From Polytrichum commune (Eukaryota > Streptophyta > Polytrichopsida > Polytrichales > Polytrichaceae): a DNA stretch of 64,000 nucleotides. Made by a program: the position numbers and the translations under genes. The DNA is taken from the NCBI GenBank assembly GCA_950295325.1, contig OX485807.1, positions 27,809,666-27,873,665 of the forward strand, given 5' to 3'. Under the pieces are notes generated by a model. The model saw only the letters and a list, made by a program, of their open reading frames with translations. It searched no databases and was not told where the DNA came from. Shown here piece after piece: positions 24,987 through 49,827 of this stretch (within the stretch, counting starts at the first letter, position 1; each line of letters begins with the position of its first letter).

Positions 24987-25284
24987 TATTGTTACAATCT
25001 GCTTAAGTTAGGGTTTACTGCATTGTCCAGAACGATGAAGCTTCTAGACGTTTGTTCAGGAAGTATATTCTAGGAGCTTCGGAGGTTCTTAGTTTCTTCT
25101 AGGAACTTCGGGGGTAGGTTACTAGTTAGTTAATTAGTTGTTTACATTAGTATAAATAGGGATTCCTTTGGTGTAATTGATCACTGTAGCAAAAGACCAT
25201 TTGAGGGATGTAGGGTGCAGTAAAGAAGAGTTGAAGCACTGTGTGTGTAACTATGAATGTTTGTCTGGTTTCCTTGTCGCAATA
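24987..25284 (+). repeat. Copia 5' LTR
   Basis: 298 bp, with a TATA-type motif TATAAATAGG at about 25149 in the expected promoter position. Ends form the short inverted pair TATTG/CAATA. Confidence 0.95.
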
Positions 25285-25431
25285 GGTTATGGGCGCCACA
25301 CACCATCTACTGCGCGCAGATAGAGTAAAGTAAGTCCAGAAAACAGTTCTTTAGTTTCAAGTCAATTCTTGAATTATCAGAGGTCTTTTCAATTCTTTTC
25401 GTCAAGATCAAGAGGATAATCGTTACTTCCA

Positions 25432-26133
25432 ATGGACGCCAGTGCCATGTCAGACATCCGGGAGTCTAGCTTAGTCGATAAATACGATGGCAGCAACTTT
25501 CACTTATGGAAGATGCATTTGAGTTTCATTTTTCAATCTCGAGATCTTTTTCCTATCGTCAATGGTACTCTGAAGAAGGCTGCTCTTAGTACTGCTGCTG
25601 ATAAATTGCTCTGGGAGAAAAAAGACAAGCAAGCCATTGTAGCAATTCTGGCCACCCTTGATTCGCACCACAAGGCGGAGGTTATCAACTGCACCACTTC
25701 TCATGAAATGTGGATGCAGCTCCAAGCTTATCACGACCAGCACTCCGATGAGTGCATCATTGCGCTTCAAGAAAAGTATTACGGAAGCAAGCTTAGTGCT
25801 GATGAGTCTATTGCCGTTTTCATTACTTCCTTAAAGAAATTGGCGAAGCAATTGACCGATCTTGGTCAACCAATTTCTGATCAACAGCTAATAAGCAAAA
25901 TTAAGTGCGGTCTGCCCTCGGCGTATGATCCACTTCTTCTAGCTTGGGATAATCTTCCTGTTGCCGAGCAGACTCTTCTTTCTTTTCAAACACGGCTTGT
26001 CAAGTTTCAGCACAAACTCCGTGATCGTGCTTTGCTACCTGAGTCTTTGTTAGAACATGTGTTTTTCGCTCAAGGTTCTTTACCGGCAGTATCGAAGCCT
26101 AATTCCACTCAGACTGTCGAAAAAAAAACATGA
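25432..26133 (+). CDS. Copia gag (UBN2-type) reading frame
   Basis: The frame opens at ATG 25432 (MDASAMSDIRESSLVDKYDG) and runs 233 codons. The motif KYDGSNFHLWKMHLSFIFQ and later HDQHSDECIIALQEKYYGSK with SLKKLAKQLTDLGQ fit the retrotransposon gag (UBN2) family, which packages the RNA. The frame closes at TGA just after a run of nine A (about 26120-26128); the zinc knuckle CYKCGRRGHFGKEC (26174-26215) follows in a different frame. A one-base length change in the A run explains it: mutation, assembly error, or conceivably a programmed frameshift. Confidence 0.85.
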   Translation: MDASAMSDIRESSLVDKYDGSNFHLWKMHLSFIFQSRDLFPIVNGTLKKAALSTAADKLLWEKKDKQAIVAILATLDSHHKAEVINCTTSHEMWMQLQAYHDQHSDECIIALQEKYYGSKLSADESIAVFITSLKKLAKQLTDLGQPISDQQLISKIKCGLPSAYDPLLLAWDNLPVAEQTLLSFQTRLVKFQHKLRDRALLPESLLEHVFFAQGSLPAVSKPNSTQTVEKKT

Positions 26134-29100
26134 GCGCGCAGAACGGTTAGCCAGACAGAAGTGTAGATCTCGTTGTTATAAGTGTGGCAGGCGAGGCCAT
26201 TTTGGTAAAGAGTGTCCGCAGGACAGTGATTCCTCAACATCTGTTGAATCACCGAAGCGTCACAAGGCGCATAAGGGGGATTTTCGTTCTCTTCGCAAAA
26301 TCTCCTCTAAGGGGAAGCGTAGTCACGCTCACGTCACTGCAAGTGCCATATCTACACATTCAGACTCCTCTGAATACGTTTCCAGTGAAGCCTATTGTGC
26401 ACAGTCCAGTGAGCTTGATTCTTCACGAGAAATCGATTTTTCCTGGATTGCTGATTCCGGTGCTACTGAGCACATGTCCGACAAAAGGCAGTGGTTCACA
26501 AATTTTCATCCGGTTCAAGACAAATGTTGGAGTGTTTCTATTGCTGATGATCATCTTCTGTATGTACGAGGCGTTGGTGATATCACAGTGCATGCTACTA
26601 TCAATGGAGTAATCAGGCCATTCAAACTTCAAAATGTCTTGTATGTGCCTCATCTTCGGCGGAACCTGATTTCCATCAGCCGACTCACAGAGAAACACGT
26701 TGCCATCATTCATGTTCGAAATGAGTGCAAAATGATAACTCACGATGGTGCTGGCCGACTCCTCATGACTGGATCTCAAGCTGATGGTCTCTGGAAGCTT
26801 GATATCATTTCTGTCACTCCTTCCAGTGAAGCTAATCTTGCTTCTGTGGCTTCTCCGGGACATTCATCTCGATCTACCTTCAATCTTCACCGGTGGCACA
26901 CTCGCCTTGGTCATGCTAGTTTCCGGACGATCAGAGATATGAGTAGCCGGAAAACTGTTCTTGGTCTTCCTTCTTTCAGTAAGGCAAATCCTTTTGTTTG
27001 TACTGGTTGTGTTCATGGCAAAATACATCGCCGTCCCTTCCCTGTCAATCCCGAGCGGAAGCGTGTTCCTCTTCCAGGTCTTTTCTTCCACACTGATATG
27101 GTTGGTCCGCTTCAGGTTCCTTCCCTTGGCGGTCATTCCTACTTCATGACTTTTAAAGACGATCATAGTAGCTTTCGTTTTGTCTTTCTCCTGCCAGATC
27201 GAAAAGGTATTCTGTCTGTTTTCAAGAGTCTCTATAAACTCTCCAAGAAAGAAACTGGTCGATCTATGGTCAAACTTCGCACAGACAACGCGAAAGAATT
27301 TCTCTCCCGAGATTTTTAGGATTTCATCAAGCAAAAGGGCATTCGTCATGAACTCACAGCTCCTTACTCTCCAGAGCAAAATTCTGTGGTCGAAAGAGAT
27401 AATCGTACAGTAGTTGAGAGTGTCAGGAGCATGCTTTATCAAAAATCTCTTCCACTTGAATTCTGGGGTGAAGCTGTTAATACAGCAGTCTATGTCCTTA
27501 ACATAGTTGCTAGTCGGACTCTTAATGGTGAAACCCCCATTCACTAAGTGGTATGGCTACAAGCCAGATGTTAGTCATTTCAAAGAGTTCGGCAGTGTCT
27601 GTTATGCTCATGTCCCAAAGGAAGTTAGAGCAAAGCTTGATAGCAAGGCTCAGGAATGTTTATTCCTTGGTTACTGTCCGACTTCAAAGGCTTATCGATT
27701 ATGGTCAATGGCTAAACGGAGAATTATGCATTCTCGTGATGTGATTTTCGATGAGGACACATCTCCTAATTTTTCGTCTTCTATTATCAGGACCACTTCT
27801 CCTCCTGACTATTCTCTCATTCTTCCTGATGAATCTCATGACTCACTTACTCCTGTGTTCCCTGAATCATCTCAAAGTGTTCACAGTGAACCTGTCTCAG
27901 TGGGAGCCGGCGCTTCAAATGTTCCTGATGAGGTTGAGTCTAATTCGTTATCTGTCAGGGAATCAGTGGGAGTGTCTCCGTTGCTTTGTCGCTCTCTGTC
28001 ATTCTCAAGTAATGCTTCTCCGAGGTCTTCTAATAGTAGTCTCAATCCGTCGTCTCGTCCTGATTCTGATTTTTCTCCGGGAGCTTCTGAGTCTCCTCTT
28101 AGGTCATCATCAGTGGCTATGACTCCCTCTGAATCACCTGACCTTCTCAATCCTACTATTCGAACACGACCTCTTTCTGAGTTTTACTTGGATAATACAG
28201 CTGATTCTCATCCTGCTGTTGCTTCACAGTCATTTGTGGCTGCAGCTAAAGCAAAATCACCCCAACGTGTGTCTGTGCTACCATCTGAACCTCAAACGTT
28301 CAATCAAGCTTTGAAGTCAGAATATAAAGCAGAGTGGGAGAAAGCTATGTTGGAGGAAATTAATTCACTGCTTAAGAATGAAACATGGTCACTAGAGACT
28401 TTGCCACCAGGGCGTACTACTGTCAAGAACAAGTGGGTTTTTCGTATAAAAGTCAAATCAGACGGCACCATTGAGCGTTTCAAAGCTCGATTAGTGGCCA
28501 AAGGTTTTACTCAATCTCCTGGGATTGATTATACAGAGACTTTTGCTCCCACTGCCCGAGCTGAGAGCATCAGAATTCTTCTGTCAATTGCGGGTGCTGA
28601 CGGATTGATTCTTGTGCAGTTTGATATTAAAACTGCTTACCTCAATTCCACTATTCGTGAAATCATTTTCATGGATTTGCCTTTTGGCTTTGAAGAGTGG
28701 TTTCACAAACATTATCCTGAAAGTCGGGGCAAGGTGTGTCGAATTCTTAAAGGTCTTTATGGGTTGAAGCAGTCTGCTCGCAGCTGGAATTCTACTTTTT
28801 CTGCTTTTCTGAAAGCATATGATCTTCTTCAGAGTACTGCGGACCCTTGTGTCTTTGTCTCCACCACAACACCTCGTCTTGTCCTTGCTCTATGGGTGGA
28901 TGATGGCTTGGCAATGTGTAAAGATAAAGATCTTTTGACCAAGATGATTGCTCATCTTAAGACTGCATTCGAAGTCACTGTTGGTGATGCGGACGTTTAT
29001 GTGGGGATTCACATTACCAGGGATGTTGCTGCTCGGCGGATTTTCATTGATCAGCAACGATTTACAGAGACCATTCTTACCAAATATGGTTTTCAGGATG

Positions 29101-29888
29101 CGAACACAGTGACCACTCCCTGCGACCCTAATGTTTCCTTGAGTCATCCGTCTGCAGGGGACACTGATACCCCTATCCCTAATTTTCCATACCAAGAAAT
29201 TGTTGGATCCCTGCTTTATTTGGCTACTCATTCGCGTCCAGATATTGCTCATGCCGTCTTTGTAGTCGCGCAATATGCTAGCAATTTTCGAGAAATTCAT
29301 TGTACTGCCGTGAAGAGGATTCTAAAGTACTTACGGGGTACAACAGATTTTGCTCTCTGTTATTCATGGGATTCTCACGAACCTCATCTGCTTACAGCCT
29401 TCTCTGATGCTGACTATGCTGGTGATGTTAATGACCGCAAGAGTCGGAGTGGGAGTATTCTCTTTCTCAACAATGGCCCTGTACTTTGGCTCAGTCGGAA
29501 GCAACCATGTACAGCTTCCTCAACGACAGAATTAGAGTATGTTGCGGCTTCACTTACGAGCAAAGAAGTGGTGTGGGCAAGGTGTCTTCTTGCTGACATT
29601 GGTTTTTCCCAACCAAACCCTACTCCTCTCTATTTTGATAACCAATCTGCTATACGGCTTGTGCAAAATCCTGAGTTTCATAAGCGAACGAAACACATTG
29701 ATGTGTTATTTCATCTCATTCGAGAATTTCAAACTCGTGGCGAAATCTCTGTCTCCTACGTTCCTACCTGCCTTCAGTTGGCTGATATCCTCACCAAGGC
29801 TTTGACCTCAGAAAACTTTCACAAGCTGCGCTCCGCACTCAATCTTTCCACGAAAGTATTTCATCAAGTGGGAGAATTTGGCCATTAA
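26130..29888 (+). pseudogene. Copia pol polyprotein (protease, integrase, reverse transcriptase, RNase H), two internal breaks
   Basis: After the A-run shift the frame shows a zinc knuckle, protease (WIADSGATEHMSD, near 26441), the pre-integrase HTRLGHASF zinc motif, integrase (FHTDMVGPLQVPSLGGHSYF, LRTDNAKEF). A TAG at 27317-27319 interrupts integrase, the frame then continues (YSPEQNSVVERDNR, with the catalytic E), and a one-base change in a C run at about 27532-27538 moves it to the third frame, open to 29888. There lie WVFRIKVKSDG and RLVAKGFTQ, the reverse-transcriptase active site LWVDDGLAM (W in place of the usual Y), and RNase H (FSDADYAGD, SSTTELEYVAA). Two of the breaks are in homopolymers, so sequencing error should be excluded before calling the element dead. 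Confidence 0.9.
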
Positions 29889-29921
29889 TGCTTCAAAACG
29901 TTCTTGGACAATGAGTGGGAG

Positions 29922-30219
29922 TATTGTTACAATTTGCTTAAGTTAGGGTTTGCTGCATTGTCCAGAACGATGAAGCTTCTAGACGTTTGTTCAGGAAGTA
30001 TATTCTAGGAGCTTCGGAGGTTCTTAGTTTCTTCTAGGAACTTCGGGGGTAGGTTACTAGTTAGTTAATTAGTTGTTTACATTAGTATAAATAGGGATTC
30101 CTTTGGTGTAATTGATCACTGTAGCAAAAGACCATTTGAGGGATGTAGGGTGCAGTAAAGAAGAGTTGAAGCATTGTGTGTGTAACTATGAATGTTCGTC
30201 TGGTTTCCTTGTCGCAATA
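29922..30219 (+). repeat. Copia 3' LTR
   Basis: 298 bp, differing from the 5' LTR at four positions by my reading. Confidence 0.95.
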
Positions 30220-30838
30220 ATCATGCGCCGACCGTGGCAAGGAGCAGCCCGCAGCTAACTGCAACCAGTACGCTCGCAACGTCCACTTTGGCTGGTCATG
30301 ACAAGTCGGGCAATGAAGTGAGGGCGTTCTCAATACAGCCCACGGGGCCTAAATGGACCCCATGGAGGCCCCCAGTGGTGAATCTCAACTATTCTGTAGT
30401 CATTGGACCAGCCCAAGGAGCAGTCATGTCGAAGCCCATTCGGGTTCATCTCATCTGGTATGTCGATCGATCACTCTGCACCGACTTCATTGCAATCTAC
30501 ATGTCTCGGTTCTATATTAACTCTCGGCGCGACAATGCAAAGCTTACTGTGTGGACTGGAATCTGGATGAGAGATCGGTACACACTGGGTCGACGTCCTG
30601 GACAGTGGACAGATTAGACGATGAATTTGGATTCCTTGTGGAGATTGAGAATATGAGCTGATCATGCTGTTCGTGACGCTTGAATGAGCATGAATTTTCT
30701 CTGGAATGTGGATGACAGTACTCTCTGATAAGGTGTGGTGGGATTGCAGGTATGGGTCGTGGGGGGTGAAACCCAAGGCCACGATTCGCAAAGCCATCAC
30801 GTCACTGACTCCCCCCACGTCCACTGAAGACATGCCGG

Positions 30839-31417
30839 GAAACTGAAGTATGTGAGCATAGCTTAGAGAGCGGAGAGCGGAGAGCGGAGATTTTCAAATT
30901 TGTTGGGTAATTATAGGAGAAGTCATGCCTATTTCCGTGGATTTTAGTGATAGTTTGTCTTCAATTTGTCGGAAAGGCACCCCATTCCCGTGTAAATAAG
31001 AACCGAACTTTGTTCGGTGAACCAACCGAACCTATAGGCGTGGAAGATAGTGTTTGTTATCAAACATCTTATAGTCTAGGTTTCGAATACGTTTATATTA
31101 AATTAGGGCTTACGTCATCAATTGAAGCTTAACACAAACATTAAAGCGGTATGGAATGTGGCCAAGAGTTAAAGTTGAACACAAACATTCAAACCATTCA
31201 AAGTCACTCACAACCTTACCATCTCTCAAATACAACTAAAGAAGACAACCTTCAAAGTATACTCAACCTGTCCACCCGAACCTATCTAGAGAATGAAATC
31301 AAACACTAACGAACTTCAATGAGGGATTGAATAAGGTTTGCAAAAGCCACATAAAAATTCAAGAAATAAACTTATAAAGTAAAATCAATACAAACAAAAT
31401 GGAGGTCCGAGGCGTAG
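30839..31417. other. Non-coding spacer with a short GAGAGCG repeat
   Basis: A 7-bp unit (GAGAGCG) is repeated three times at about 30866-30890. ACCGAAC..TTTGTTCGGT near 31001-31019 is a small palindrome. No gene recognised. The 3' untranslated region of the minus-strand gene that ends at 31418 should lie here. Confidence 0.5.
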
Positions 31418-34400
31418 TCAAGAACTAGGACTACCATGTCTATCACTATCCTCGCCCTCCTCCGCCTCTACGTCTAAATACTCCTCTACTAGTTTGTTGA
31501 AAGGTCGGATGCGACTGGGAGGTGGAGACGGAGCTTCCGTCAAAAGATTGGCAAGCCCGGCCGCATAGCAAGGGAGCTCAAATGTCTTGGAAGGACTCGA
31601 ACTCATACATGCGTTCTCCCTTGGCGCTCTGAACCAAAAAACAATAAGATTAGAAACAAGATGACACACGAAGATGGGAAAATCACTAGAAGGCAAACAT
31701 GACAAAACATAGAAAGAAAACTTACGCACAAAGAAAACCGAATGCTCGTTTGGTCATCTTCTTAGGCGGATCAAACATAGAGGTGGACGGTGGGGCATTT
31801 GAGCGGGAGGGTTGCGAAGGTTGGTTTTCACGCATGGGGAGTAGGATCGCATTGAAAATCACTGGGTCACTCTCAAAGGCCACAATATGCCGCTCAATGG
31901 AGCGACACGCTGTAATTGAACCACCTACACCACAATGCCAGTCCATAACAACATCATTCTTATCTGTGAGAGTAGCAAAAATGATAGAGAAGAAAACTTG
32001 ATGCTTCTCGCGAGCACCTCTCCAGGGTATCCCATCACTGCGCATCGTCTGGCTCTTCTCATCGGTGAAAGCATTCAACCATCCATCTCGCTGGAGGTAG
32101 TAACCATACTCCTTGGCGGCCTCCGGTCGTACTTTCAGAACGGAGTTAACACGAACAAGAACCTTGATACTGAATTTACGAGTCTGAAAAAATGAAAACG
32201 ATTCCATAAGAATCGGAAGAAATGAAATGGAAAAAAGAAAAAAGAAACAGGAGAGGGATAATTGCTTACCACTCCAGAGGGGTCCACTGGAGATTGGAGG
32301 TCCAAATCAGCCATACCGAACCAATCTTCGGCGACGTAGAAGTCGTAAGTGTGAGCCCAATCGAAAATAAGCCTAGAAACACTTGCACTCGCACAATGGA
32401 CAATAACAAGGACGCCATGATCATAGAGGTTAGATTTTGCAAAAGCAAAAAGACAGTCATAGTAAGAGTCATGGAGCTTGTTCCAATCAGGAACATCCGT
32501 GGAGATGTTGGGCACCGGCAAATTTTTGGGAATGTCCGCGAAGAGTAAATTCAGTCCCTTGTGATGTGTAGAGGAGGTGTTCACACGGGAACAACCTTCC
32601 CCGGCCTGCAATGAAAAATCCATGAGAAAAAATGAAGAAGGAAAAAAAAACGCAAACCAAATGGAAAGGAGTTTGATGAATGCCAATAAAAAACATACAA
32701 ACATTGGCAATGAACTTTTGGATGCGCGTATATGCCAGGAGGGGACCTCCTGCAAGGTTGCAATCGAGCATGAGTTGTACCATGTCCACATTTTCGATGA
32801 GGGAAAGCGTGGTAGGTGAATCCGAAGAGGTGGCACTCGTATCCAAGAGGGCGGCCTTCCTCTTGCGAGGCAAGGAGAGAAGAGAAGTGCCACTGTGAGA
32901 AGGAGTAGCAACAGTTGGTGGCCAACATGCGGAGGGAGTGATAGAGGGGGCAGCTGATGGAGCAACGGAGGGAGTGCTAGGTGGACTCTGTAGTAAGGTG
33001 GATGGCTGAACGGGGGTCTTTGAGGCGGACCGAGTTAATTGAGTGCCGGTATTCTTACCTCTGCCCTTTGCCTTGGGTGCCTTGGGCGGTGGAGGAGGAA
33101 GCTCAACGATGTCGGGCTCCTCATCCGGGACAATGTTCACCTCGGAAGCACTACGCACAAGGCTAGTAAGAAAAGGCTTTTCTTCCGCAGGCACAAATCC
33201 TCCAGAACAATCCAAGTACCATCCCCCAGCTTGCAAGTGAGACTGCGGAAACTTGGCAACTTGATTGGGCGTAAAAACACAAAGATCGGAGTTGACATCG
33301 ACCCAATGTAAAAGGAAAGTTGGCAAGCACGAAGAAGGCAATGCATTCTTCACAACGAGCTCACGGTGAATGAACCTGAAAAATGAAAAACATGATAAAC
33401 AAAGACGGTGGAGAAAAGGAAATGAAACAAAAACAACATGTACTCAAAGAAAACTCAGAATATTACCGGTAAGCGACGCATTTGATTGATATGGGGCTGT
33501 CCCTAAAATCCATGAGATCAAGGCCTTTGACAAATTTTAGATCTCCCTTATCGTCAAAATAAACCAAAAATGCCTTGTCCCAAAGAATCAACCTCCAATG
33601 CTCAACATAATCTCCCGGTTGAAAAATATCTTCCGTGGAACTCCAATCGATTTCAACGGAACACACATTCTCAAATGAAGCAATCTCAGCCTCAACCCCC
33701 TTCTCCAACTATGACAGAAAAGGAAAATAGTAAGAAAAGAACAACTCAATAACCTACAAACATGAACTTAGACTCTAGACACATAAAAAAAAACCTTAGA
33801 CATGACAAAAAGACCGAGAGGGTGTCCCACTCATACCGAGAGGGTGTCCCAGTCAAACATTCTATATTTCCAAACAAGAAATAAACATATTAGCTGAATA
33901 ACCTGATATCAGATTCTAGTGACGAGCCAAATAAATCCACATATGAGCACCACATATTAGCATCACTTATGCACATTAGAAAACTGGACCGGGAAATCAG
34001 ACCATATTTTCAAGTTCTCACCCAAAATGACCACAGTGACAAATTCTCAAAATCTGAAATTCCCTTATTAGCTAAATAAGCACAAATCATATTCTAGTCT
34101 TGAGCCTCAAAACATACATTTCTCCACCCTCTCGGAACCGAGAGGGTGTCCCGGTCCTACTATAATGACCATTTTCTTAAATTTTGAAAATCAGAATTAC
34201 CTATATGGGCTAAATAAGCAAAAACAGATTGTAGTCATGAGCCATTAATTTCCACATCTCTCCACCCTCTCGGAACCGAGAGGGTGTCCCAGTCTAACTA
34301 CCTTACCATATTTTGAACTTTTCAAAATGAACACTACCTAAATGGGCCCATTATCTATATGACCATAACTTTTGAAAATCATAATTACCTATATGAACTC

Positions 34401-37400
34401 AATATCCACATATCAGATTCTAGTCTTGAGAACCCAAATTCCACATCTAGGCACCCACTAATACCAAAATGACCTTAGTATCAAAACTTGAAATTCCCTT
34501 ATTGGCTCAAGAAGCACAAATCAGATTCTAGTATTGAGCCTCAAATATATACATTTATCCACCTGGTCGGAACCGAGAGGGTGTCCCGTCCTAATAGACT
34601 GACCATATTTTAAAGTTTTGAAAACCAAAAATACCGATATTGGCTTCATAACCACATATCAGATTCCAGTCATGAGAACCCCAAATCCAAATTTCGGAAA
34701 ACACTAAAATAAAAAATGACCATATTTTCGAGTTCTGAAAATAAGAATTACCTATTGTGAGACCAAATCCACCACCCTTAAGCGTCCTAGTCCGGGTGAT
34801 GACTTTGAGAATCACATTTATCTATCACAACATGGAACCATATGCAAGGTGATTTTCATGTTTAAATGAACATGCATTGTCTCACTCATTGTACTTTATT
34901 AATGTTGGCCTCTTGGCTTGTGCTAGAGTTGGCTTTCTCAAGAGTCCAACCCGCGGCTTTAGCCGCACATGCCCTCAATGATTTTCCCCTTGCATACTTT
35001 GACCCAACCTCCTTTGTCTTCCCCTCGCGGAAGTCCTCCACCTTCTCCATTACTTGTGCACTTGATTTATTTAATAGAGAGGATACAAGCGTTAAAAAAC
35101 GCTATTTCCCATAATCAATCCTAAGTGCAATTACTTATGAAACCCACACGTGCCTCCACCTAACCTAATGTGGCCAACTACTTATCTATAAACTAATATA
35201 GTCTAATATAGTCTATAAACTAATGTAATAATATAAACTAATCAGTCACAACCACAGCTAACCAGCTGCCTCCAATGCAGTCGCAACCACAGCTAACCAG
35301 CTGCCTCCGATGCAGTCGCAGCCGCAGTTAACCAGTTGCCTCTTGATACAGTCTCCCCTAGCCGCTAATCGAGCATTTCCCTAAGTCTTTGTTTTCGATC
35401 CTTTACTAATGAATTAATCTAACCCACTAATTCCACTAAATAACTACCTAATCCCCACATGTTGTCTCAAGCTCTAAGAGCTCACTCCACTTGAGAGGAA
35501 TTGAGAGAGAGAACTTAACTAATTAAATTCACTAAAAACTAATGTCCTACACGCGTAGCTCAAGCTTTTAAGAGCTTGCTCCCTTGAGAGCGCTTGATGA
35601 AGAGAGAGAGAAATGAGAGAAAAAACACCTTAAGTAGCAAAGAGGGAGAGAGGGAGAGAGGGGGAAAGAGGTGAGGATAGGGTGAGAGGATTGGCACCTC
35701 CAATCACAATCCTTTAACCCTCTCCTCCAAAGTAGGGACTAATCCCCATCCACCAAGCTTCCTTCTTCCCAAACTACCAAGGTGGATCCAAAAGTGGGCA
35801 TTTAACTCGCGGAGCTCACCTTGCTTCACCTTACCCCCCACTCACCTAATCAAGGCATCCTCTTATTGAAGTTAAACCTTGAAATTACTACACAACACAT
35901 TCTAATGCCTAAACTTAAATCCATACCACACTTCACTCTTTTTATGTTTTGTGAATAATCATAGCACATCAAAGTCACACTAAAATTGGTTTCGAAGACT
36001 TAATCACCACATGTGGGCACCATTTTGGGCTCACACCTATATTGGCTCAATATGCACAAGTCAAATTCTACTCTCGAGCCTAAGATTTCCACATTTCTCA
36101 ACCTCTCGGAACCGAGAGGGTGTCCATGTCCTACTATTTTCACCATATTTTGAACTTTTGAAAATCAGAATTACATATATTGGCTAAATAATCACCAACC
36201 AGATTCTAGTCATGAGCCATTAATTTCCACACCTCTCCACCCTCTCGGAACCAAGAGGGTGCCCTTGTCTAACTATCCTAACCACAATTTCAACTTTGGA
36301 AAATCAAAACTACCTATATGGGCCCATTTTCCACAAATCATATTTTAGTCATGAGCACAAAATTTCCACATTTGTCCACCCTCTCGGAACCGAGAGGGTG
36401 TCCCTGTCCTACTATAATGACCATATTTTAAACATTTAAAAATCAAAACTACCTATATGGGCCAATTATCTACAAATCAGATTCTAGTGAATGGCCTCAA
36501 ATTTCCACATTTCTCCACCCTCTCGGAAACGAGAGGGTGTCCCAGTCTAACTATCCGAACCATATTTTCAACTTTTGAAAATCTAAACTACCTATATGGT
36601 CCCATTATCCACAAATCAGATTCTAGTCATGAGCCTAAAATTTCCACATTTGTCCACCCTCTCAGTTCCGAGAGGGTGTCCCTGTCCTACCATTTTCACC
36701 ATATTTTCATCTTTTAAAAACCATAATTACCTATATTGGCTAAATAAGCACAAACCATATTTTAGTCACGAGCCATTAATTTCCGAGAGGGTGTCCCAGT
36801 CTAACTAACCTAACCATATTTTGAACTTGTAAAAATCAGAACTACCTATATGGGCCCATTATCCAAAAATCAGATTCTAGACATGAGCCTAATATTTCCA
36901 TATTTCTCCACCCTCTCGGAACCGAGAGGGTGTCCCAGAATAACTAACCTAACCATATTTTGAACTTTTGAAAATCAAAACTACCTATATGGGCCCATTA
37001 TCCACAAGTCAGAATCTATTCTTGAGCCTGAGATTTCCACATTTCTCCACCCTCTCGGAACCGAGAGGGTGTCCTAGTCTTTCTACAATGACCATGTTTT
37101 CAACTTTTGAAAATCTAAAGTACCTATATTGGCTCAATATCCACATTTCATATTATAGTCTTGAGCCTAAGATATCCACATTTCTCCACCCTCTCGGAAC
37201 CAAGAGGGTGTCCTAGTCCTTGGTATGAAGATTTCAAATAATAGAAAGAGGAAAAAAACAAGTTTTGCACCTGCGCCCAGAAAGAAGCTTTGTTGAGCCA
37301 GTTTTCGAGGACTTTCTCCCTAAGAGGGAGAGACGACGGAAATCTATTCTTTTCCTTGACATCGGCAGGGGAGTTCCACCAACGAAGCCACTTGGCCTTG

Positions 37401-38953
37401 AATGGGCATCCACATGTGCGGTAGCCACCTTTTGAAGTTTTTCGATTGTCATATCAGGGACGAGGAAGGTGGAGAAATGACGGTCAATCTGCCACATAGA
37501 TATGAAGTAAGAATAGAGATAAGTAAGAAAGAGATATCAAGCACGACATGATGTAAATGAGAATGAAAGAATAAATGAAAACACAAGGATAAGAGAGACA
37601 CCTCATTGAAGAAATCATCCCCGTTGTCCTTGTGGGCAACGGAAATGAACTTCTCAAAGTTCCGAGAACGAATGCTTTTGATCAACCTATCCTGGGCTTT
37701 TGACATAATATCCCAAATTTCTGTCGAAGATCGGAGAGCCTCGGGAGTGGCCTCACGGTATAACCTCGCAGCCGTATCAGCCGCGTTGGATATCTCTCTC
37801 TGAAACAAACACAAAGAAGGATAAGGAACGCACATAAACATGGGAGAAGGAAAGTCAAGGAAAGTTTAAACAAACTTTACCTTGTATAAGAATTTGACGA
37901 AGACATCTAATGTCAGGGGATACCAAGTAGGAGTCTTCTCCATCTTGGACTCACACATCTTGTAGTCCGAAACGGAAAGGAGGTCTTTGAACTCCTCTAG
38001 CCTCATTTTTCCAAACGTGCGAATGCGAAGTAACTTGGCGGGGAGGTTATCCTTAACATGGTCATGCTCCGTGGACCTATAACAAACAAAATGTTAGAGG
38101 GAAAAATGAGAAAAAACAAAAAAGAATATCAACAACATTAAATGTTGAACTCACCAGTTGATGTCATTCATAGCATTAAGGAAGAGGGCGGTGCAATTTC
38201 TTGGATCCACCAAAATACAATCAGCCCATATATGCCAATCTTTGTCCAAAGGGTGATGCTTGTTGATGTGCCTCCACCAAGCTGTCAACCGATGGTTCCC
38301 CTCCCACACGTAGAACATTTTGCCAACAAAGTTAGCAAGGTCGGGGTCTCTTTCGAGAATGGCATCAAACTCTACATTGGCCTCTTGCCATAATGGACTC
38401 CAGGAGGACTTGACGTCATCGGAGACATGAAGGACCTCATCGAGGTTGTTATATAGAGAGACGTACAAAGCGCGGTCACCATCACGGTATCCCATGACGA
38501 ACTCATTCTCCAAACGAGAAACATCAACGTCGTTGATTGGCCGAACAAGAGGAAGACTCCGCAAGCGACACAATGGAATAGAGAAACGAGACTTCCCAAG
38601 AGGCTTGAATCGCACCCGCTGAATCACGGTGTTAGAGTCTTGCTTCTGCGATCTCCGAACCTTGAGCTCGGCTTCATCTGGATTCTCCCCATCAAGAGGT
38701 CGAATGCAGTCGGAAACAAGCGGAACATCAATCTACAAGAGAAGAGGAGGGAAGCATCAGAAAAAAAACTATAAGACGAAACAAACAAGAAGCAGAGGCA
38801 AACAAAAATACAACAGAATTTCAACGAATCAAACACCTCTCCCTGTGAGATGTCATCCAATGCCCTATGGCAATCTTCACGAGGCGACAATAGAATATGC
38901 CCATCCGCCATGTATTGGACACGCGCCACAGTAAGGGCCAAAGCCTGCGATGC
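31418..38953 (-). CDS. ParB-like plus beta-class DNA methyltransferase-like protein, ten exons
   Basis: Exons (minus): 38837-38953, 38155-38732, 37881-38076, 37602-37799, 37271-37488, 33467-33708, 32703-33375, 32270-32605, 31726-32183, 31418-31628; phases agree at every junction apart from one slip inside exon 5. Nearly all sites are standard GT-AG (exon 7 uses GTTTGT). About 1075 codons; ATG 38911 (MADGHILLSP) is the first good start, though more 5' exons may exist. Exon 2 has a ParB/sulfiredoxin-like core: IPLCRLRSLPLVRP, then FYVWEGNHRLTAWW and WADCILVD. Exon 7 is a P/S/T-rich linker with a basic patch (LPRKRKAAL). Exon 8 has NLLFADIPKNLP (motif IV position, normally DPPY) and exon 9 REKHQVFF then VMDWHCGVGGSITAC and AFESD (motif I/II). 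The order IV before I is the beta class of N6-adenine/N4-cytosine methyltransferases. Exon 10 ends acidic. ParB-methylase fusions are known in phages and bacteria. DNA binding is likely; catalysis is doubtful. One base appears missing in an A run of exon 5 (37430-37448). Confidence 0.75.
33800..34755. repeat. 138-bp hairpin satellite, block 1 (in intron 5)
   Basis: Repeat units marked by CACCCTCTCGG, AA, CCGAGAGGGTG (a perfect 11-bp-arm palindrome with a 2-base loop) followed by TGTCCCAGTC. Markers at about 33814, 33835, 34124, 34262 and 34560. Units also share TATGGGCCCATTATCCAC and CAGATTCTAGTCATGAGCC. Confidence 0.85.
34756..36035. mobile_element. Solo LTR, 1280 bp, inserted in the satellite
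   Basis: Starts TGTGAG and ends CTCACA, flanked by a 5-bp duplication CCTAT (34751-34755 and 36036-36040). Removing it and one duplication restores the satellite text ATTACCTAT|ATTGGCTC. No retroviral frames are inside, so it is a solo LTR left by recombination (or a very short LTR element). It holds a 3 x 35-bp tandem repeat at about 35246-35350 and paired AAGAGCTCACTCC/AAGAGCTTGCTCC blocks. Its family is not represented elsewhere in the window. Confidence 0.8.
36041..37215. repeat. 138-bp hairpin satellite, block 2 (in intron 5)
   Basis: Palindrome markers at about 36101, 36238, 36377, 36516, 36653, 36772 (left arm lost), 36908, 37047 and 37186, i.e. spacings of 137-139 bp except one short unit. 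Some units keep compensated or single-side changes in the arms (AACCAAG, AAACGAG, CAGTTCCGAG). Confidence 0.9.
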
Positions 38954-39099: not shown

Positions 39100-39709
39100 A
39101 GTGAAGAGCCCATATAAACACCATTTCTCCACCATCTCGGAACCGATAGGGTGTCATGTCCTACTAAAGTAACCTTAAACCACATATATGATTCTTGTGA
39201 TGAGCCTAGAAATCCACAATTCTCCAGCCTCTCGGAACCGAGAGGGTGACCTAGTCTAACAAACCAGACCATATTTTCAACTTTCGGAAATCAGAAATAC
39301 CTTTAAAGGCTATATAACCACATATAAGATTCTAGTGTTGGGCCTCAAATTTCCACATTTCTCCCCCTCTAGGAACCGAGAGGACATACACGCAGTCTAA
39401 CTAATTCAAAACTAACTATATGGGCCCATTATCCACAAATCAGATTCTAGTCATGAGCCTAAAATTTCCACATTTCACCACTCTCTCGGAACCGAGAGGG
39501 TGTCCCCTTCCTACTATAATGACCATATTTTGACCATATGAAAATCAATACATCTTATATTGGCCCATTATCCAAAAATCAGATTCTATTCATGAGCCCA
39601 AAATTTCCACATTTCACCACCCTCTCGGAACCGAGAGGGTGTCCCAGTCTAACTACCCTTACCATATATTCAACTTTTGAAAATCAAAGCTACCTATATG
39701 GGCCCATTA
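39100..39709. repeat. 138-bp hairpin satellite, block 3 (upstream of the ParB-like gene)
   Basis: Markers at about 39127, 39224, 39364, 39479 and 39618. The last unit is cut at GGGCCCATTA by the CACTA element starting at 39710. Units here are more variable in length (97-140 bp). Confidence 0.85.
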
Positions 39710-40615
39710 CACTACAACAAACCTTGTCCATTCCAACCAGGGTATCAATGACTCAGTGTCCTAAACAACTCATTAAACGACTGTGATGCCTGATGAAGTC
39801 ACCTTGTGTGACGTGGCTAACATGTGAGTCATTGTTTAGTCATTTAAATGACTAAAGATGAACTCTGTTGACGACCGCACAACATACTCATTTTATGTCT
39901 AACAAATTTCATCCACTACATCCATTCGTGTATGACGTGGATAGAATATCTTGACGTGGCTGACTGTTAGTCATTATCTGGTCGTGATTTAACGACTACG
40001 TGTTTACTATTATTTAAAAATAACACAAATATGTGATGTGGCACTTACATCCCTCTAATGACGTGGAAATTAGGGATTAATTGAGTGAAAATTATTCTCG
40101 ATAATAGTGACCTGTCAAAAGAATGACTACGAATTTCGAGCTCAATGACTGACTCACACGCCCGCCAAGATTGGGATGACGTGTACAAGCGTTTAGTCAT
40201 TGTTCAGTTACTGAAATGACTCGTGGATGACATGTGCAACTTTTGGTGAAAGGTTAGTTATTCATCGTCCAACTCATCCATGCCGGTGTGACGTGCCAAA
40301 ACAACTCTCACATAGCAACTGTGCAGTCATTTCTGTGTTGCCCTTCACTAACCCATACTTAACCATGACTCTCCAACAGATTGCAAGTACATATATGGAA
40401 GATATACATTGCCAATGTGCACATATGATGCAGGTCTGAAATCATGTGTTCAATGGAGGGCATTGGGCAAGAACAATCTTTTTCATTTATCATGCCACGT
40501 ACTCGATGACGTGGACGTCTTAGTCATAGTGGAGTTGTAGTTCAGTCACAATATTGTTAAATACAACCACTAAGGACATTTGTGACCCCAGCTAGGCTTC
40601 TGTAAAAACAAACAC
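39710..40615. repeat. CACTA left terminal and subterminal repeat region
   Basis: About 0.9 kb of short direct and inverted copies of TGAGTCATTGTTTAGTCAT and TGACGTGG words, the type of array bound by TNPA in En/Spm. No coding sequence. Confidence 0.75.
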
Positions 40616-41520: not shown

Positions 41521-42511
41521 ACGGACTCATCCGCCCGCTCAGGCAGTAGGGGTTTACAGAGGCGTTCATATTTTTGCAAAATAACAGGGCACATTGACAC
41601 AATAATGTGCAATAAAAAAAAACACGGTCACACTCACCTATGCAAAGGTGCCATGAGGGATAAATTCGTCAAAGCATATTGGTGGGCTACATCTCTCAAT
41701 GCTGGTGTCATCAAGTACTTTGTCCTGCCCCTTCTAGCACCTCCTCTGCATCTCCGTACTCTTCATCCGCATCCCATACTCGACGGTCAACCACTTCAAA
41801 CTTGTGTAGATATTCCGTGATGAAACCTAGGCATTCATCCCTCGCGTAACCCTCCGCCATGCATGCCTCCGGTGTTGCCATGTTCCGAACATAATGCTTT
41901 AGGGTTTTCATGTATCTTTCAATAGGATACATCCACCTTGTGGAGACGGGACCACACATGTCCAATTCATCGACAAGGTGATACAATAAATGCGTCATAA
42001 TGTCAAAAAATGAGGGAGGGAAATGAATCTCCAGAAGTGCCATGCTCCGTGCGACGTCCGCCTGAAGAGCTTCAAACTCCAATGGGTTCCAAATACTCCC
42101 ACATATCCTTCGGAACACTTTCGAAATCCTCATCACCGCCATTCGTGGACCAGGTTGTAAAAGACCTCGTAGTGCTAGTGGCATGATTTGCTGCATAAGC
42201 ACATGGTAGTCATGCGACTTTAAACCCCCGAACGTCCTCTTCCGTACGTACTGAGCCATGTTGGAAACATGTCCTGATGGTGTCTTCAGGTTCTCGATAA
42301 CACTGCTAAATACTTCGAACTCTTCGCTTGTCAACACATACGGGGCCGCCGGTTTCAACATTTTCCCATTTTTCCTTGGGTGGGGAATGAGCCACAAATG
42401 CGGCCTGATGCCTCTGCGTTGTAGGTCGCGGCGGACCTTTACTGTGTCCTTGTGTCCTGTGACGGTCTTCAATATGTTCTTCGAAAAGTTTGCCTCACAA
42501 TGCATAACATC

Positions 42512-43486
42512 TGTCGCAACCCTTGCTAGCCCCCCCTTGACCATCTTGCCAATTTTCAATTCTAGCAAAGGTTACGAGTGGCTAACCCTTCGCATACCGC
42601 CATGCTAATGGTTAGCTCCTCTAACCCCGGACCAATAGTTCATAGGAGGGAACCAACCCTCCTACTTTGCTTTCGGGACTCACCCCTTAATCGGTAACCC
42701 ATTTCCCCAATGTGGACTTCCATCCATGGAAGTCCAATCCTATGTTGATCATCGCGTTGCCGGAGCAACACTACAACAACCCGAACCATACTAGGCAACT
42801 ATGGCCTCACATTGGGCCAATGCCCATGGAGGCCGTGCCGTTCGGCCTCGGGTGGGTGAGGCCACACCACCTCACCCATATAAGCCTCTAGGACTCTACG
42901 CGGGGCCCCTACCCCACCGTCAACCAACCTCTTGTCTCTCTACCAAGAGTTGGGGCCAAGTGGACATTTTCCCTTAGCCGCTGGGCCTAGAAGCCCCCAG
43001 CAGCTTCAGACCATCATAACTTCCTTGTATGATGTCTGATTCCAGCAACCAACCACTCCATCTTCATCTACGCTTCACGTAGATGCCGATGGACTCCTCA
43101 CTTGCCCCATTCGGGCAAGTGGTGAGGAAGTTATGCCTGTTTGAACCTTGGCAGTCCCGGGAATCACTCCCAGGCACTGCTGTACCAGGGCGCTGTCCCG
43201 GGACAGCGCCCCACTCAAATGGCCATAACTCCTAGCTCACACCTCCGATTGAGGTGTTCTTGGGCTTTCTAGAATCACCACGCCATGAGCTACGCATAGC
43301 TCATGGCCTTACCCTTGTGCCTCCTAGTCTTTGTGGGTGGGAGGCGTTCCCAACGCCCGGGGCCCTCACCCACACTAGGATCACTTGGGCCCTCTCACCA
43401 ACGGCGCCACAAGTCCCGGGTGTCACTCCGGGGTCCCCCTTGTGCCCATGGTGTTTCGGGCACTCCTCATGGAGAGGTGCGCGACA
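42512..43486 (-). repeat. Gypsy 3' LTR (left on the plus strand)
   Basis: 975 bp, TG...CA. GC-richer than its surroundings; holds palindromes such as CGCTGTCCCGGGACAGCG and CATGAGCTACGCATAGCTCATG-like text (43280-43305). Confidence 0.95.
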
Positions 43487-44715
43487 CTCACCCCCACCAA
43501 ACGGAGTCGATGCCCTCATCGACTATACTCGTAGTCGGCACACCAATTCTCAAGTTGCCATCCTCTATGGTGCGGCATTGTGTTTACCTTAGGGCGCGAC
43601 CCCCACAATGCATCTTCAAATTTGGCATGGTCCCAAAGGTGTCGTTACTAGGTGGTCCGTTAGCGACCTTGGAACTCCTCCAAGGACCTAACCTATACTA
43701 GCCCACCTACTTCGGGACTCACATGGGTTGCCCCTCCTTTGGGGCCTCCCCCGTTAGGCTCCACTAGCCTAACGTGACACATCTAGGCGAGACCTCAACG
43801 CTTCCACTAAGTTGTCTCGGTTGCAACTCCGAGATGACTTTCCATTGTTAAGCCACGCCTCGATCGCACGGGGGTGATGCCAAGTCCCGCCCGACTCGGT
43901 TCCCACTTTGCTCTTTCGAGACATGGGTTCATGACTCCCATGCGCCAACTCTCGTTAGCTCGCGGGTAGCACTTTTATGAGCACGCGCCATCACCTTGCC
44001 CCCGCCCGGACAAGCCCACAACTAAGAAGTTTCTTGGTTTTATCCAAGGCCCCTCCAAGCCATGGCCCCCAATTACTCGGCTTACCCAACCTAGTTTGGC
44101 ATATCTATTCCCCCTCTTCCATTAACCAAGCACAAGTACAAGACTAGGACCTCATCTCATACTTTTCTCTTTGCACCACTAAAGTTTGGACTTTATTTCC
44201 TCAAGCCAAAGAACAAGTTCATGTTGTGGAGCAATTAACCTCGAAGCTAAGTGTTCTACTAGCGTCTCTCCTCCACTAAAGGAGATTGATGTCCTCATCA
44301 ATGCCTACGCTTCATTTTATTGAAATGTCTAGCCTTAGTTTATTCAAAGTGCTTTACCAATTCCTTGGCGTTCACCATGTCCCTTGCTGCCACCTAAGCG
44401 ATTTCTTTCTACCATTTCACCAAGTATTCCTTTGTACCTTTTCTTTCCTTTTCACTTGGGCTTCCTACACTTGAGGGTGCCCTCCTACCTCATGTTCCAA
44501 ATGGCCTCCACAAGGTCGGGACGTGGCCTAATCACTTCCTTGTGATCGGGCCACAAGGTGTCGTCCTAAAATGACTTTCGTAATGAGACATGAAATGTCA
44601 GATGCACTTTGATCTCCGGCGGTAATTCCAACTTATACATGTCCTTGAACACTTGTTCCACAATGGAAAACAAAGCTCCAATTTTGGACATGAACTTTGG
44701 AGTGAGGCCTTTCGG

Positions 44716-45243
44716 CTAAGTGAAGTTGTTCACATTCAACAACACCTTTTGGCCCACCTCATTCTCCACTTCGCGTCTTCCGGCATTGACTTGCACTCCG
44801 TACCACCTTCGGGCTTTCTCCACCAACAACTTGGTCATCTCCAAGACTTGTTCACCATCCTTGGCCAAATCCTCACCATCTTGGTTGAACTCTAGTGTTG
44901 AATGTGCCCCCTCGAGAGCTAGGTTAATAGGTTGGAGGGCATCCACCCCATAAGCCACCACCAAAGACCACCCCTTGGTAGCCAAGTGCGTGGCTACATT
45001 GCAATTACACTCCGCTCGACCCACATAGTCCGCCCAATCTCCTTGGTCCGCCCCCACCAAGTTCCTCAAATATTGCTTCAAGACTCCATTCACATGCTCC
45101 GCTTTCCCATTCATTTGGGAATGCAAGGCCGTGCTAAACCTTAGTTTCATTCCGACCTCCTTAGAGAAATGCATTGAAAATGCACTTGTGAACTTTGGAT
45201 CTTGATCCCACACAATCACTCTTGGCAACCCGTGGTGTCTCAA
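44716..45243 (-). pseudogene. Gypsy integrase fragment
   Basis: Open for 175 codons on the minus strand. GLPRVIVWDQDPKFTSAF (second catalytic D), FSTALHSQMNGKAEHVNGVL (catalytic E, with N for D and K for Q around it) and LKQYLRNLVG are typical Ty3/Gypsy integrase. The N-terminal zinc domain and first D lie upstream in broken frames. The C-terminal part (VEKARRWYGVQVNAGRREVE) is followed by a stop. Confidence 0.85.
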
Positions 45244-46139
45244 CCATCCTTTGAGAAAAGGCTATGCGGTCTCCAACGCGGTCGCGGTTCCCACAATCGA
45301 CACCATGTGTGCCAACTTGGCAAACCGCTATACCATCACAAGATGGCATCATACCCATGTGACCCCGGCAAACTTGTGATCAAGTCCATGCACATACTAT
45401 GCCATGGCGCCGACGGGATAGGCAACGGTTGCAAGAAACCGCCTTGCTTTTGGTAAGAGGCTCGGTTCACTTGGCACTTTAATTCAAGCCTTCACAAAGT
45501 GGGCTATATGTTCCTTTTATGCACCGCCAATGGCAACTTCATGACACCATTCTATGGCGGTTTTTCTTTCTCCTCTATGGCCGGCAATATGACTATCACA
45601 TTCGTCCTTCAAAACCGATAGCCTCAACTTGCCTTGAGGCACATACACCCGACTTTACTTACACTTGAACAATCCGTCCACCAAGTTAACCTCTTTGAGC
45701 ACCTTGCTCTTGCGAAGCTCACCTAAAAGCTTTTGTGCCTCGGGGTAGTTAATTTACCCCTCCCGTATCTTGCATCACAAGTATCCTTCGCCGGCACACA
45801 TTAGCCACAAGGTTTGGATGGTTCTCATTGCTTGGAACTCTTCAGGTCTACTTAGCGCATCCGGCACCACATTTCCACGGTCCGGTTTGTGGATCAAATC
45901 CACCTTCATAAGCGCCACACTATCATGCCACCGCAATGAGTTGGCGCTCACTTGCGCTTGTATATGTTAAAATACTTTTAGGACACATTGTCCATGTAGA
46001 CCTTTGCTTTGTGCGACCCCAAATAGTGTCCCCACATCTTCAAGCAATGCACTACGGCAAAGAAATTCTTTGTCATGAGTTGGTTGTCTTCTTTGACAAC
46101 TATCGAGCTTCATGCTCCCATATGCAATGGCCATCCAAT

Positions 46140-47010
46140 TACACATAATCCACCATTGGCAAACTTATTCACCCCCGTATGCACCTCAAAAGGTTTGTCA
46201 AGCTCCGCGAACTTGAGCACGGGCGTCTAAGAACACTTGCTCTCAAGCTCCCCAAAGACTTGGTGGCAAGGCTCATCCCACTCTTGGGATAGCCATTTCT
46301 TCCACAAGTCGAATAAGGTCGGATAACCATCAAGCTTAACGCTCTCATATGCAATGGCCATCCATCTTACGTTAACCATCCGCCAATGGCAAAGTCACTC
46401 GTCCCCCCGTATGCACCTCAAAAGGTTTGTCAAGCTCCGCGAACTTGAACACGGGTGGCAAAGACAACTTTGTATTAAGCTCCCCAAAGAGTTTGGGGCA
46501 AGGCTCATCCCACTCTTGAGATAGCCATTTCTTTCACAAGTCGCACAAGGTTTGACAACCTTTAAGCTTAACGCTCCCATATGCAATGGGCATCCATCTT
46601 GGATCAACATCCGCCAATGGTAAAGTTACTCGCCCCCGTATGCACCTCAAAAGGTTTGTCAAATTTCGCAAACTTGAGCACGGGCGGCGAAGAGAACTTG
46701 GTCTTAAGCTCCTTAAAGACTTGGTGACAAGGCTCATCCCACTTTTGGGATAGCCATTTCTTGCATAAGTTGGACAAGATCGGACAACCATCGAGCTTCA
46801 TGCTCTTGTATGCAATGGCCATCTATTTTGCCTCAACATCCGCCAATGCTAAAATCACTCGCCCCCGTATGCACCTCAAAAGGTTTGTCAAAGTCCGCGA
46901 ACTTAAGCACGGGCGGCGAAGAGAACTTGTTTTTGAGCCCCCCCAAAGGCTTGGTGACAAGGCTCATCCCACTCTTGGGATAGCCATTTTCCTCAATAAG
47001 TTGAATAAGG
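46140..47010 (-). repeat. Fourfold tandem repeat of the Gypsy RT/RNase H junction (229-232 bp units)
   Basis: The word CGTATGCACCTCAAAAGGTT recurs at about 46176, 46408, 46637 and 46866. Each unit on the minus strand encodes the same piece: KKWLSQ.WDEPCHQVF, PVLKFA..DKPFEVHTGAS and AYESMKLDGCP. In normal elements this segment (connection domain to start of RNase H, with catalytic DAS) occurs once. Units differ by substitutions and a few indels, so the duplication is older than the insertion. G replaces the catalytic D in HTGAS. Confidence 0.85.
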
Positions 47011-47039
47011 TCCTAGCAACCTTAGAAAACTCTCGAATG

Positions 47040-47350
47040 AAGTTGTGGTACTAATTGGCTAGGCCAACAAATGACCTAAGCCCTTTTTGAATCAAGGGCC
47101 AATTCTCCTTTTGGATTGCCTTGACATTCTTCATGTTCGTCCACCAACTTCCTTTGTCATCACATACCTCAAGAACTTAATCTCTTGTTGAACAAAGTTA
47201 TTTTTCACTCCTTGGCGGTAATTTTTTTGGACAACACATTGGTGAATACATCCTTGTATCTCACCAACATCACACCAATGTTGTTTGGGGGAGGCCCATC
47301 TTTCCCAGCCTCCCCATACGTTCCTTGGAGTTGCTCCAATTGAACCACAA
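47040..47350 (-). pseudogene. Gypsy reverse-transcriptase remnant with palm deleted
   Basis: On the minus strand MLVRYKDVFTNVLSKK (the text just before the RT domain) is followed within about 30 bases by NNFVQQEIKFLRYVM and LRSFVGLAN, which belong after the RT palm. The roughly 150 residues holding the YVDD/FVDD active site are absent. A poly-T run at about 47366-47380 lies just beyond, within the retropepsin-to-RT linker. Confidence 0.75.
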
Positions 47351-47353
47351 CCA

Positions 47354-48526: not shown

Positions 48527-48809
48527 TAATACCCTCCAAGGTTTTGGGTGCTTTCGGTATTCTAGGCCCCAAATGTTTTTTGAGGTTTGCGGGAGCCCTT
48601 TTCAAAGCACTCCTCCATTTTCCTTACCGAATCCACCCTCATGCCCACCATTACCATTAAAATCAATGGTATGGTCAAACTCCATTTGCACATGATCCTT
48701 GTTCCAATTTGAGCCTCACAACCTTTTGGAAACCCCGGGCTCACCATCACAACCCGCATTTATGATAGCCATGTTTCCCTCAAAGTGCGAGCTAAAAACT
48801 TGGAACCCT

Positions 48810-48821
48810 GCTCTGATACCA
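48810..48821 (-). other. Gypsy primer-binding site
   Basis: GCTCTGATACCA, reverse complement of TGGTATCAGAGC (initiator tRNA-Met), two bases from the LTR edge at 48824. Sets the element orientation as minus. Confidence 0.95.
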
Positions 48822-48823
48822 AG

Positions 48824-49798: not shown

Positions 49799-49827
49799 AC
49801 ATCCAGGGTGTATCGTATGAGCAGATC

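Follow-up and report, generated by a model that had tools for sequence, protein, structure and literature searches.

The window analysed here, a 64,000-nucleotide stretch of the plant Polytrichum commune (contig OX485807.1, hereafter C5; C5:27,809,666-27,873,665 of a 408 Mb genome), carries on its minus strand a ten-exon gene which joins a ParB/sulfiredoxin-like domain to a DNA amino-methyltransferase-like (methylase-like) domain, and which almost certainly belongs to a large transposon. The ten exons proposed in a preliminary description of the stretch, running from 38,911 to 31,418, are all present, and all nine introns are of the GT-AG type once some boundaries are shifted by 1-3 bases. Eight of these introns measure 78-113 nucleotides and the fifth 3.56 kb, and the GC content is 49% in the exons and 38% in the introns, with intron 5 counted in. 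The motifs on which that description drew were likewise located, in that exon 2 contains FYVWEGNHRLTAWW, bearing the ParB-like GNHR motif, exon 8 contains DIPK, and DWHCGVGGS falls within exon 9. Its single open reading of about 1075 residues did not hold up, as exon 5 is frameshifted and the corrected model comprises 1,060 residues, a single X marking the break. Exon 5 is open in one frame in five of the seven copies tested (c2, c4a, c4b, c6 and f1, introduced below), the other two being c3 and the window copy; on this sequence comparison the window copy is decayed and unable to make the whole protein. The entire stretch is collinear in the sister copies and every exon was recovered in most of them, which supports, short of the proof that a transcript would give, the earlier proposal that both halves form one gene.

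The evidence for mobility comes from the copies of this gene and from their ends. At least 150 scored genomic matches to exon 2, some with stops, were obtained from 1,284 first-look candidates, and these are spread over eight contigs, seven large and one small. Five further full-length copies of the exon, on C2, C3, C4 (two) and C6, are 97-99% identical to that of the window. Comparison of 40-kb loci revealed a terminus corresponding to window position 30,837 (GGGAAACTGAAG...) that is shared by three of the five sister copies (c2, c6 and c4b), and beyond it the flanks are unrelated save for two matching bases in c4b; homology to c4a begins 29 bp inside the terminus, and c3 is truncated. The element thus begins at 30,837, outside the range of 31,418-38,953 to which the feature had previously been confined. 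A second subfamily, represented by f1 and f2, has the same architecture with a ParB exon that is 64% identical. Both ends were located in f1 and c4b, which are bounded by GGGA...TCCC inverted repeats and, in both of these two copies, by perfect 9-bp duplications, CCACCCGAG and AATTCCCCC. The terminal inverted repeats are imperfect, being clear over ~70 bp in f1 and weaker in c4b, and the elements measure 16.7 kb (f1) and 17.4 kb (c4b, including an insertion in its transposase gene). Target duplications of 9 bp are typical of Mutator-like elements (MULEs).

At its left end the window element abuts an interrupted gene, in that window positions 8,977-9,593 match 30,220-30,836 at 96%. The name EXORDIUM-like for this gene rests on a Pfam Phi_1 match located further on in the other of these two copies (10,349-10,900), and the two matching stretches have no Pfam match themselves. 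An exact partner of the presumed left target duplication, AGACATGCC, was found neither further right in the window nor in the locus L047, where the right end and second duplication of the window element were sought, near C5:27,898,219, and not found either. The same gene copy also houses a Copia element at 24987-30219 (RVT_2, integrase) with 298-bp direct repeats, 99% alike, at both ends, and has therefore been struck twice. Elsewhere in the genome, the last 18 Mb of C4 (C4:41000000-59099198) hold 43 of the 150 scored ParB-exon copies, many with stops, and this might be a non-recombining or heterochromatic region; a separate ParB-exon-like fragment of 77% DNA identity (L037, C4:57467265-57467887) lies 11 kb from the c4b element.

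The element is laid out as two main divergent genes, the ParB-methylase gene and a transposase-like gene, the latter with frames of 766 and 555 amino acids in f1 and of 702 amino acids without a stop in c3. The signatures DGT, ADS, CFFHW, NLAES and CxC..CxH were read by eye from its product, and these we take to denote a MULE-type DDE and SWIM protein. At least 130 copies of its catalytic part were scored among 1,791 candidates. A transposase copy lies divergently within 30 kb upstream of 75 of the 150 ParB copies, as against a mean of 0.8 and a maximum of 3 in 200 random trials, and five further pairs occur in another orientation; both lists are lower bounds, so that the other 75 ParB copies are not thereby transposase-free. 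In both f1 and c4b a small third frame is present on the minus strand, close to the right end. A transposase copy with 97% identity, one stop and the same orientation lies at C5:27,898,219, ~25 kb past the window, and is only possibly a part of the window element. CACTA-type transposase genes (DUF4218, Transposase_21) occupy 41714-52075, a region that also has two repeats of 300 bp (at 42504 and 48816) which are 99% alike, and such insertions may separate the half element in the window from that copy.

The elements also carry tandem arrays with a parS-like palindrome. In c2, c3 and c4b an array is positioned between the two divergent genes, and in the subfamily of the window another lies in intron 5; f1 has an array between the same two genes with other units and the palindrome GAGGCCTCGGATCCGAGGCCTC. 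A common core, CTCGGNNCCGAG, occurs within the elements at 9 (window), 32 (c2), 18 (c4b), 32 (f1) and 28 (f2) sites, and at none in the ~126 kb beside the five elements. In the window and f1 these sites fall outside the mapped exons: the nine of the window are divided between intron 5 and the region upstream of the gene, and the 32 of f1 all belong to the inter-gene array. Among 14 loci examined, palindrome arrays are present in 12 and the exact core in 11. The array periods vary (139, 107, ~85 and 127/96 bp) along with the units while the core remains constant, and this suggests, from sequence comparison, that selection acts on the site. Another family of palindromic tandem repeats, of the GTTTGGGTCGGTCGACCCAAAC type, occurs near c3, c6 and f1, outside the elements (L024, C3 near 36438500; L028, C6 near 42170500; L043, C3 near 8709000), and may represent a further element using palindrome arrays.

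The exon 2 domain has the topology of the ParB N-terminal domain in its fold match, and we consider its assignment to the ParB/sulfiredoxin fold, based on modelled structure, to be very secure; in this respect the preliminary description is supported. The G-x-x-R signature takes the form GNHR in 89 of 120 proteins, the site being visible in 98 of the 120, and in an alignment of 67 members (A1) G145, N146 and H147 are invariant and R148 is conserved in >=90%. PF02195 is not among the Pfam families matched by these 67 members at E<=1, DUF6551 matches two of them weakly, and a profile of the family finds no sequence relative in the PDB (best E 0.91). A sulfiredoxin function was set aside, as ParB structures match better.

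The domain of exons 8 and 9 is in all likelihood methylase-derived, and its earlier reading as beta-class-like with a permuted motif order is supported, although a defining catalytic feature is lacking. Single-sequence matches below threshold to N6_N4_Mtase, CcrM and DpnA coincide in position. The PF01555 (N6_N4_Mtase) match reaches 15.3 bits, below the gathering cut-off of 26.7, with 3 of 20 members matching at E<=1; that to CcrM has an E of 0.014, and that to DpnA improves from 0.05 to 0.0024 with the family profile over 52 columns around motif I. The PHROG families "methyltransferase" and "DNA methyltransferase" are matched by eight and six of 20 members respectively at E<=1 (best 3e-4). 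In a single hhalign comparison with ten phage beta methylases the profile aligned over columns 17-234 of 266 (probability 93, E 3e-7), pairing FADIPKNL with the DPPY loop, MDWHCGVGG with DxxxGSG and ESD with the motif II region; the ParB profile, used as a control against the same ten methylases, gave a probability of 1.3. This collinear alignment recovers the permuted beta-class order IV..VIII, target recognition domain, X, I along one chain. The catalytic [DNS]PP[YFW], in contrast, is replaced: the 47 proteins readable at this place comprise 36 with D[IV]PE, three with D[IV]PK and eight with other changes, and a [DNS]PP[YFW] string occurs, at whatever position, in one of 62 proteins. Most readable members retain motif I (DWQCGVGG) together with the acidic ALESD segment. 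Within exon 9 (31726-32183), f1 and relatives such as P0135, P0138 and P0171 carry an extra intron inside motif I, between CGVG and GGSI, which is absent from the window copy and from P0123-P0125, an apparent intron loss, to judge by the alignments, inside an active element lineage.

Protein-level searches returned 171 relatives of exon 2 at E<=1 among 250 candidates (best 1.2e-106), with 50-99% identity over the aligned part among the 120 matches listed, and 62 relatives of exons 8-9 among 304 candidates; with so many relatives the exon pattern is far beyond chance. The full-length protein had no match at E<=0.01 among the 7,984 best word-sharing candidates scored, probably because the searched collection consists of single exons, and single-sequence searches of Pfam, NCBIfam and the PDB gave only the sub-threshold methylase matches and unrelated weak ones. 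Viral contigs yielded no confirmed relative either of exon 2 by itself or of the ParB profile, and in prokaryote genome contigs 46 stretches fitted a pattern and none was confirmed. In tblastn searches of phages, exons 1-4 gave three matches (E 0.8-3), and 31 records at E<=10 were returned for the C-terminal part, the best of them (E 0.004) a phage DNA methylase. ParB members matched 24 PHROG families, mostly as lone weak matches, with one ParB-like family at E 0.35. Viral fold matches are mostly to phage proteins, headed by a mycobacteriophage DNA methylase; a giant-virus origin was set aside as a candidate, with Cafeteria roenbergensis virus at rank 7, Orpheovirus at 21 and Bodo saltans virus at 45, a ranking that cannot decide origin.

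Between the subfamilies (window versus f1) the ratio of nonsynonymous to synonymous divergence (dN/dS) comes to 0.15 for the 659 codons taken from exons 2, 3, 4, 6, 8 and 9, at a partly saturated dS of 1.29; single exons give 0.33 (exon 7), 0.19 (exon 8) and 0.20 (exon 9), of which exons 8 and 9 are unsaturated. For the transposase (c2 versus f1) the ratio is 0.09 in the core and 0.43 in the N-terminal part. The synonymous divergence itself forms a mosaic, with exons 2-4 saturated, exon 6 at 2.4, exons 7-9 at 0.35-0.59 and the transposase at 0.25-0.28, a pattern which we read from these sequences as an exchange of the ParB half between elements, though differences in rate might also produce it. 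Within the array of intron 5 there is also a solo long terminal repeat (LTR) with no match in the sister copies c2, c3, c4a, c4b and c6, so that by this comparison it is a later arrival than the element. The features of the window are collected in Table 1.

Table 1. Features of the element and its ParB-methylase gene in window coordinates.
Feature	Position	Strand	Basis
AGACATGCC, presumed left 9-bp target duplication, at end of interrupted EXORDIUM-like gene	30828..30836	.	Inferred from f1 and c4b duplications
Element left end, GGGAAACTGAAGTATGTGAGC then GAGAGCG tandem units; terminal inverted repeat region	30837..30910	.	Terminus shared by window, c6, c4b, c2, flanks differing; inverted right end in c4b, f1
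Exon 10 and stop codon	31418..31628	-	Also compared in sister copies
Exon 9, methylase-like, motif I MDWHCGVGGS and FESD	31726..32183	-	Pfam, PDB, profile and PHROG matches
Exon 8, methylase-like, FADIPKNL at motif IV place	32270..32605	-	Relatives; profile alignment
Exon 7, proline/serine-rich linker	32703..33375	-	Also compared in sister copies
Exon 6	33467..33708	-	Also compared in sister copies
139-bp tandem array in intron 5, parS-like palindrome CACCCTCTCGGAACCGAGAGGGTG; core sites 34131, 34269, 36105, 36383, 36915, 37054	34041..37220	.	
Solo LTR (TG...CA), 5-bp duplication CCTAT, within intron 5 array	34756..36035	.	Boundaries and duplication
Exon 5, frameshift-broken here	37271..37488	-	Frame compared across copies
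Exon 4	37602..37799	-	Also compared in sister copies
Exon 3	37881..38076	-	Also compared in sister copies
Exon 2, ParB/sulfiredoxin-fold domain with GNHR	38155..38732	-	
Exon 1, proposed ATG	38837..38911	-	25/25 residues kept in c2, c4a, c4b, c6
139-bp array upstream of gene; core sites 39231, 39485, 39624	39173..39791	.	

Given the above observations, we somewhat favour the interpretation that this gene, almost certainly a transposon gene, serves as an accessory gene within a large MULE-like DNA transposon with terminal inverted repeats, and that the product of the gene binds palindromes and forms a protective coat. In this scheme the ParB-like domain would recognise the palindromes as a parS-like loading site, and it seems fairly probable that the palindromes bound are the candidate sites of the element itself. 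The protein, perhaps via a nucleotide switch, would then coat its own element and spread along it. The methylase-like domain, its catalytic tetrapeptide changed in nearly the whole family, may still bind DNA and S-adenosylmethionine but not carry out standard amino-methylation. The coat would shield the promoters of the element from silencing by the host, as VANC protects VANDAL elements, or alternatively it would assemble the element ends for transposition; by analogy anti-silencing could be the main role, though we hold this with rather less than even confidence. A more elaborate version, to be taken only tentatively, is that of a transposon-owned eukaryotic ParB-parS system, in which a nucleotide-gated clamp is coupled to a dead methylase as a sensor of DNA or S-adenosylmethionine, and in which the ParB half and the array are swapped as a matched specificity cassette. 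Such swapping would explain why exons 2-6 are saturated or nearly so and exons 7-9 and the transposase are not.

Several observations weigh against this interpretation of a palindrome-binding transposon protein. Pfam at E<=10 identified no helix-turn-helix (HTH) like that of ParB in exons 1-4, and the transposase-like protein matches no Pfam family, MULE/MuDR transposases included, at E<=10. The methylase fold rests on sequence profiles: its AlphaFold model, computed on a homologue that reads through an intron, is of low confidence (pLDDT, the predicted local distance difference test, of 56) and gave no useful fold match, and the fold search, which placed the DNA methylase 5hfj at rank 20 (E 9.5), was left unused. 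With regard to the arrays, the core at L019 is a variant, no palindrome array is present at L049 and L051 within 1.8 kb each, and c4a and c6 each have three core sites beyond the mapped copy; the extra sites of c6 lie in further array sequence, and around those of c4a there are just 60- and 25-bp matches. Finally, recent copies show pooled-exon dN/dS of 0.21-0.78, with several single exons above 1, which suggests that many copies decay following insertion, as would be expected.

Of the rival explanations, two appear to survive about equally, and we regard both as rather improbable. According to the first, the protein is part of the transposition machinery, binding the arrays as internal enhancers and bridging the ends with no role in silencing. 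The persistent linkage of the gene to the transposase-like gene and the situation of the arrays between the two would fit this, whereas the core sites of the window and f1 are internal, none of them being less than 3 kb from a located end. According to the second, the palindromes are a by-product of satellite growth or sites for host factors, unrelated to the ParB domain. The GTTTGGGTCGGTCGACCCAAAC-type repeats near c3, c6 and f1 outside the elements and the two of 14 loci lacking an array are compatible with such an origin; the retention of the same core across subfamilies with differing units, periods and flanks is not readily accounted for by it. Somewhat less likely still is active self-methylation, in which the ParB domain would guide the methylase to the arrays so that N4-methylcytosine or N6-methyladenine marks or protects the element. 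Such a role has been proposed in print for algal relatives (PMC12477816) and would suit the conservation of motif I and ALESD, yet the catalytic tetrapeptide is replaced, none of the 47 readable proteins having it at that place. The preliminary description had suggested an old transfer that was then domesticated, perhaps for reading chromatin or DNA marks. For the corresponding rival, a domesticated nuclear plant gene of bacterial or phage origin whose product would read or write a DNA mark on behalf of the host, the spliced ten-exon structure with mostly short introns, the purifying selection between subfamilies and the prokaryote-type domains might be cited; the copy number with near-identical copies, the defined ends and target duplications, the transposase-like linkage, the frameshift in the window copy and the left end set against an interrupted gene render this very improbable, and largely refute it for the window locus, although elsewhere in the genome a domesticated copy may occur.

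Descriptions of transposon-encoded proteins that overcome silencing are rare; for plants the example found is VANC of VANDAL elements. If the present element indeed carries both a ParB and parS-like sites of its own, the spreading of a clamp would have been adopted as a chromatin tool outside prokaryotes. The mosaic divergence provides naturally occurring protein-site pairs, both matched and mismatched. The locus also counsels caution, in that a multi-exon plant gene with bacterial domains may turn out to be cargo of a transposon rather than a domesticated gene.

Among known systems, the nearest functional model is VANC, which strips methylation from VANDAL elements and whose targets are often tandem repeats in introns and upstream regions (PMC5735166). 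The present family shares with it an accessory gene in a MULE-type element, family-specific tandem repeats in introns and upstream sequence, here as candidate targets, and a divergence of the protein together with its target or putative target. VANC contains DUF1985 and DUF287 (PMC5735166), neither of which is detected in the present protein by Pfam at E<=10, and VANDALs are reported as lacking terminal inverted repeats (PMC13317346), unlike the present element. Bacterial ParB-parS acts as a clamp dependent on cytidine triphosphate (PMC12704722). The present protein resembles bacterial ParB in its ParB/Srx fold and, as the fold match implies, in an arginine after GNH at the place of the P-motif, and the palindromic sites are similarly found in noncoding DNA near the gene; it differs in the lack of a detected HTH or PF02195 match, in a long insertion in the fold and in arrays of many sites. 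Phages possess fusions of ParB with N6/N4 methylases (PMC12704722), thus combining the same two kinds of domain in one protein; those are prokaryotic virus genes, and for the present gene no viral relative was found at the sequence level. Fungal DNA transposons, KDZ and others, carry TET/JBP genes, that is, genes for DNA-modification enzymes thought to counter silencing (PMC12730594), with a different enzyme and a different host kingdom. Bacterial-type N4C methylases of bdelloids and Marchantia, the latter without extra domains, are described as active host enzymes (PMC8885841) and, compared by description, represent a similar recruitment of bacterial-type amino-methylases by eukaryotes.

A close parallel in architecture is Sola1-1_Ec32 of Ectocarpus, in which a 1,104-amino acid protein with ParB-like and N4/N6 methylase domains lies opposite the transposase, and whose authors suggest that the protein binds and modifies the element; the same paper refers to ParB-methylase cases in green algae (Iyer 2011) and in red algae (Petroll 2025) (PMC12477816). 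No description of a function contradicting the preliminary statement that none was known emerged from the literature surveyed, whereas the architecture itself had already been reported in these algal transposons. Both elements are giant DNA transposons with a protein of ~1,100 amino acids combining the same domains on the strand opposite the transposase. Sola1-1_Ec32 is of the Sola1 type and from a brown alga, whereas the present one occurs in a plant, is MULE-like with target duplications of 9 bp, and combines a changed catalytic motif with arrays of parS-like palindromes. Such arrays are not mentioned in the part of PMC12477816 consulted, nor for algal ParB-methylase elements in the surveyed literature, to which the green and red algal originals do not belong; PMC9477723 offered nothing of relevance. 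On the whole, this kind of element is already known from algae, and the present one differs in its plant host and MULE-like type with 9-bp duplications, in the catalytic change, in the parS-like arrays and in the mosaic divergence.

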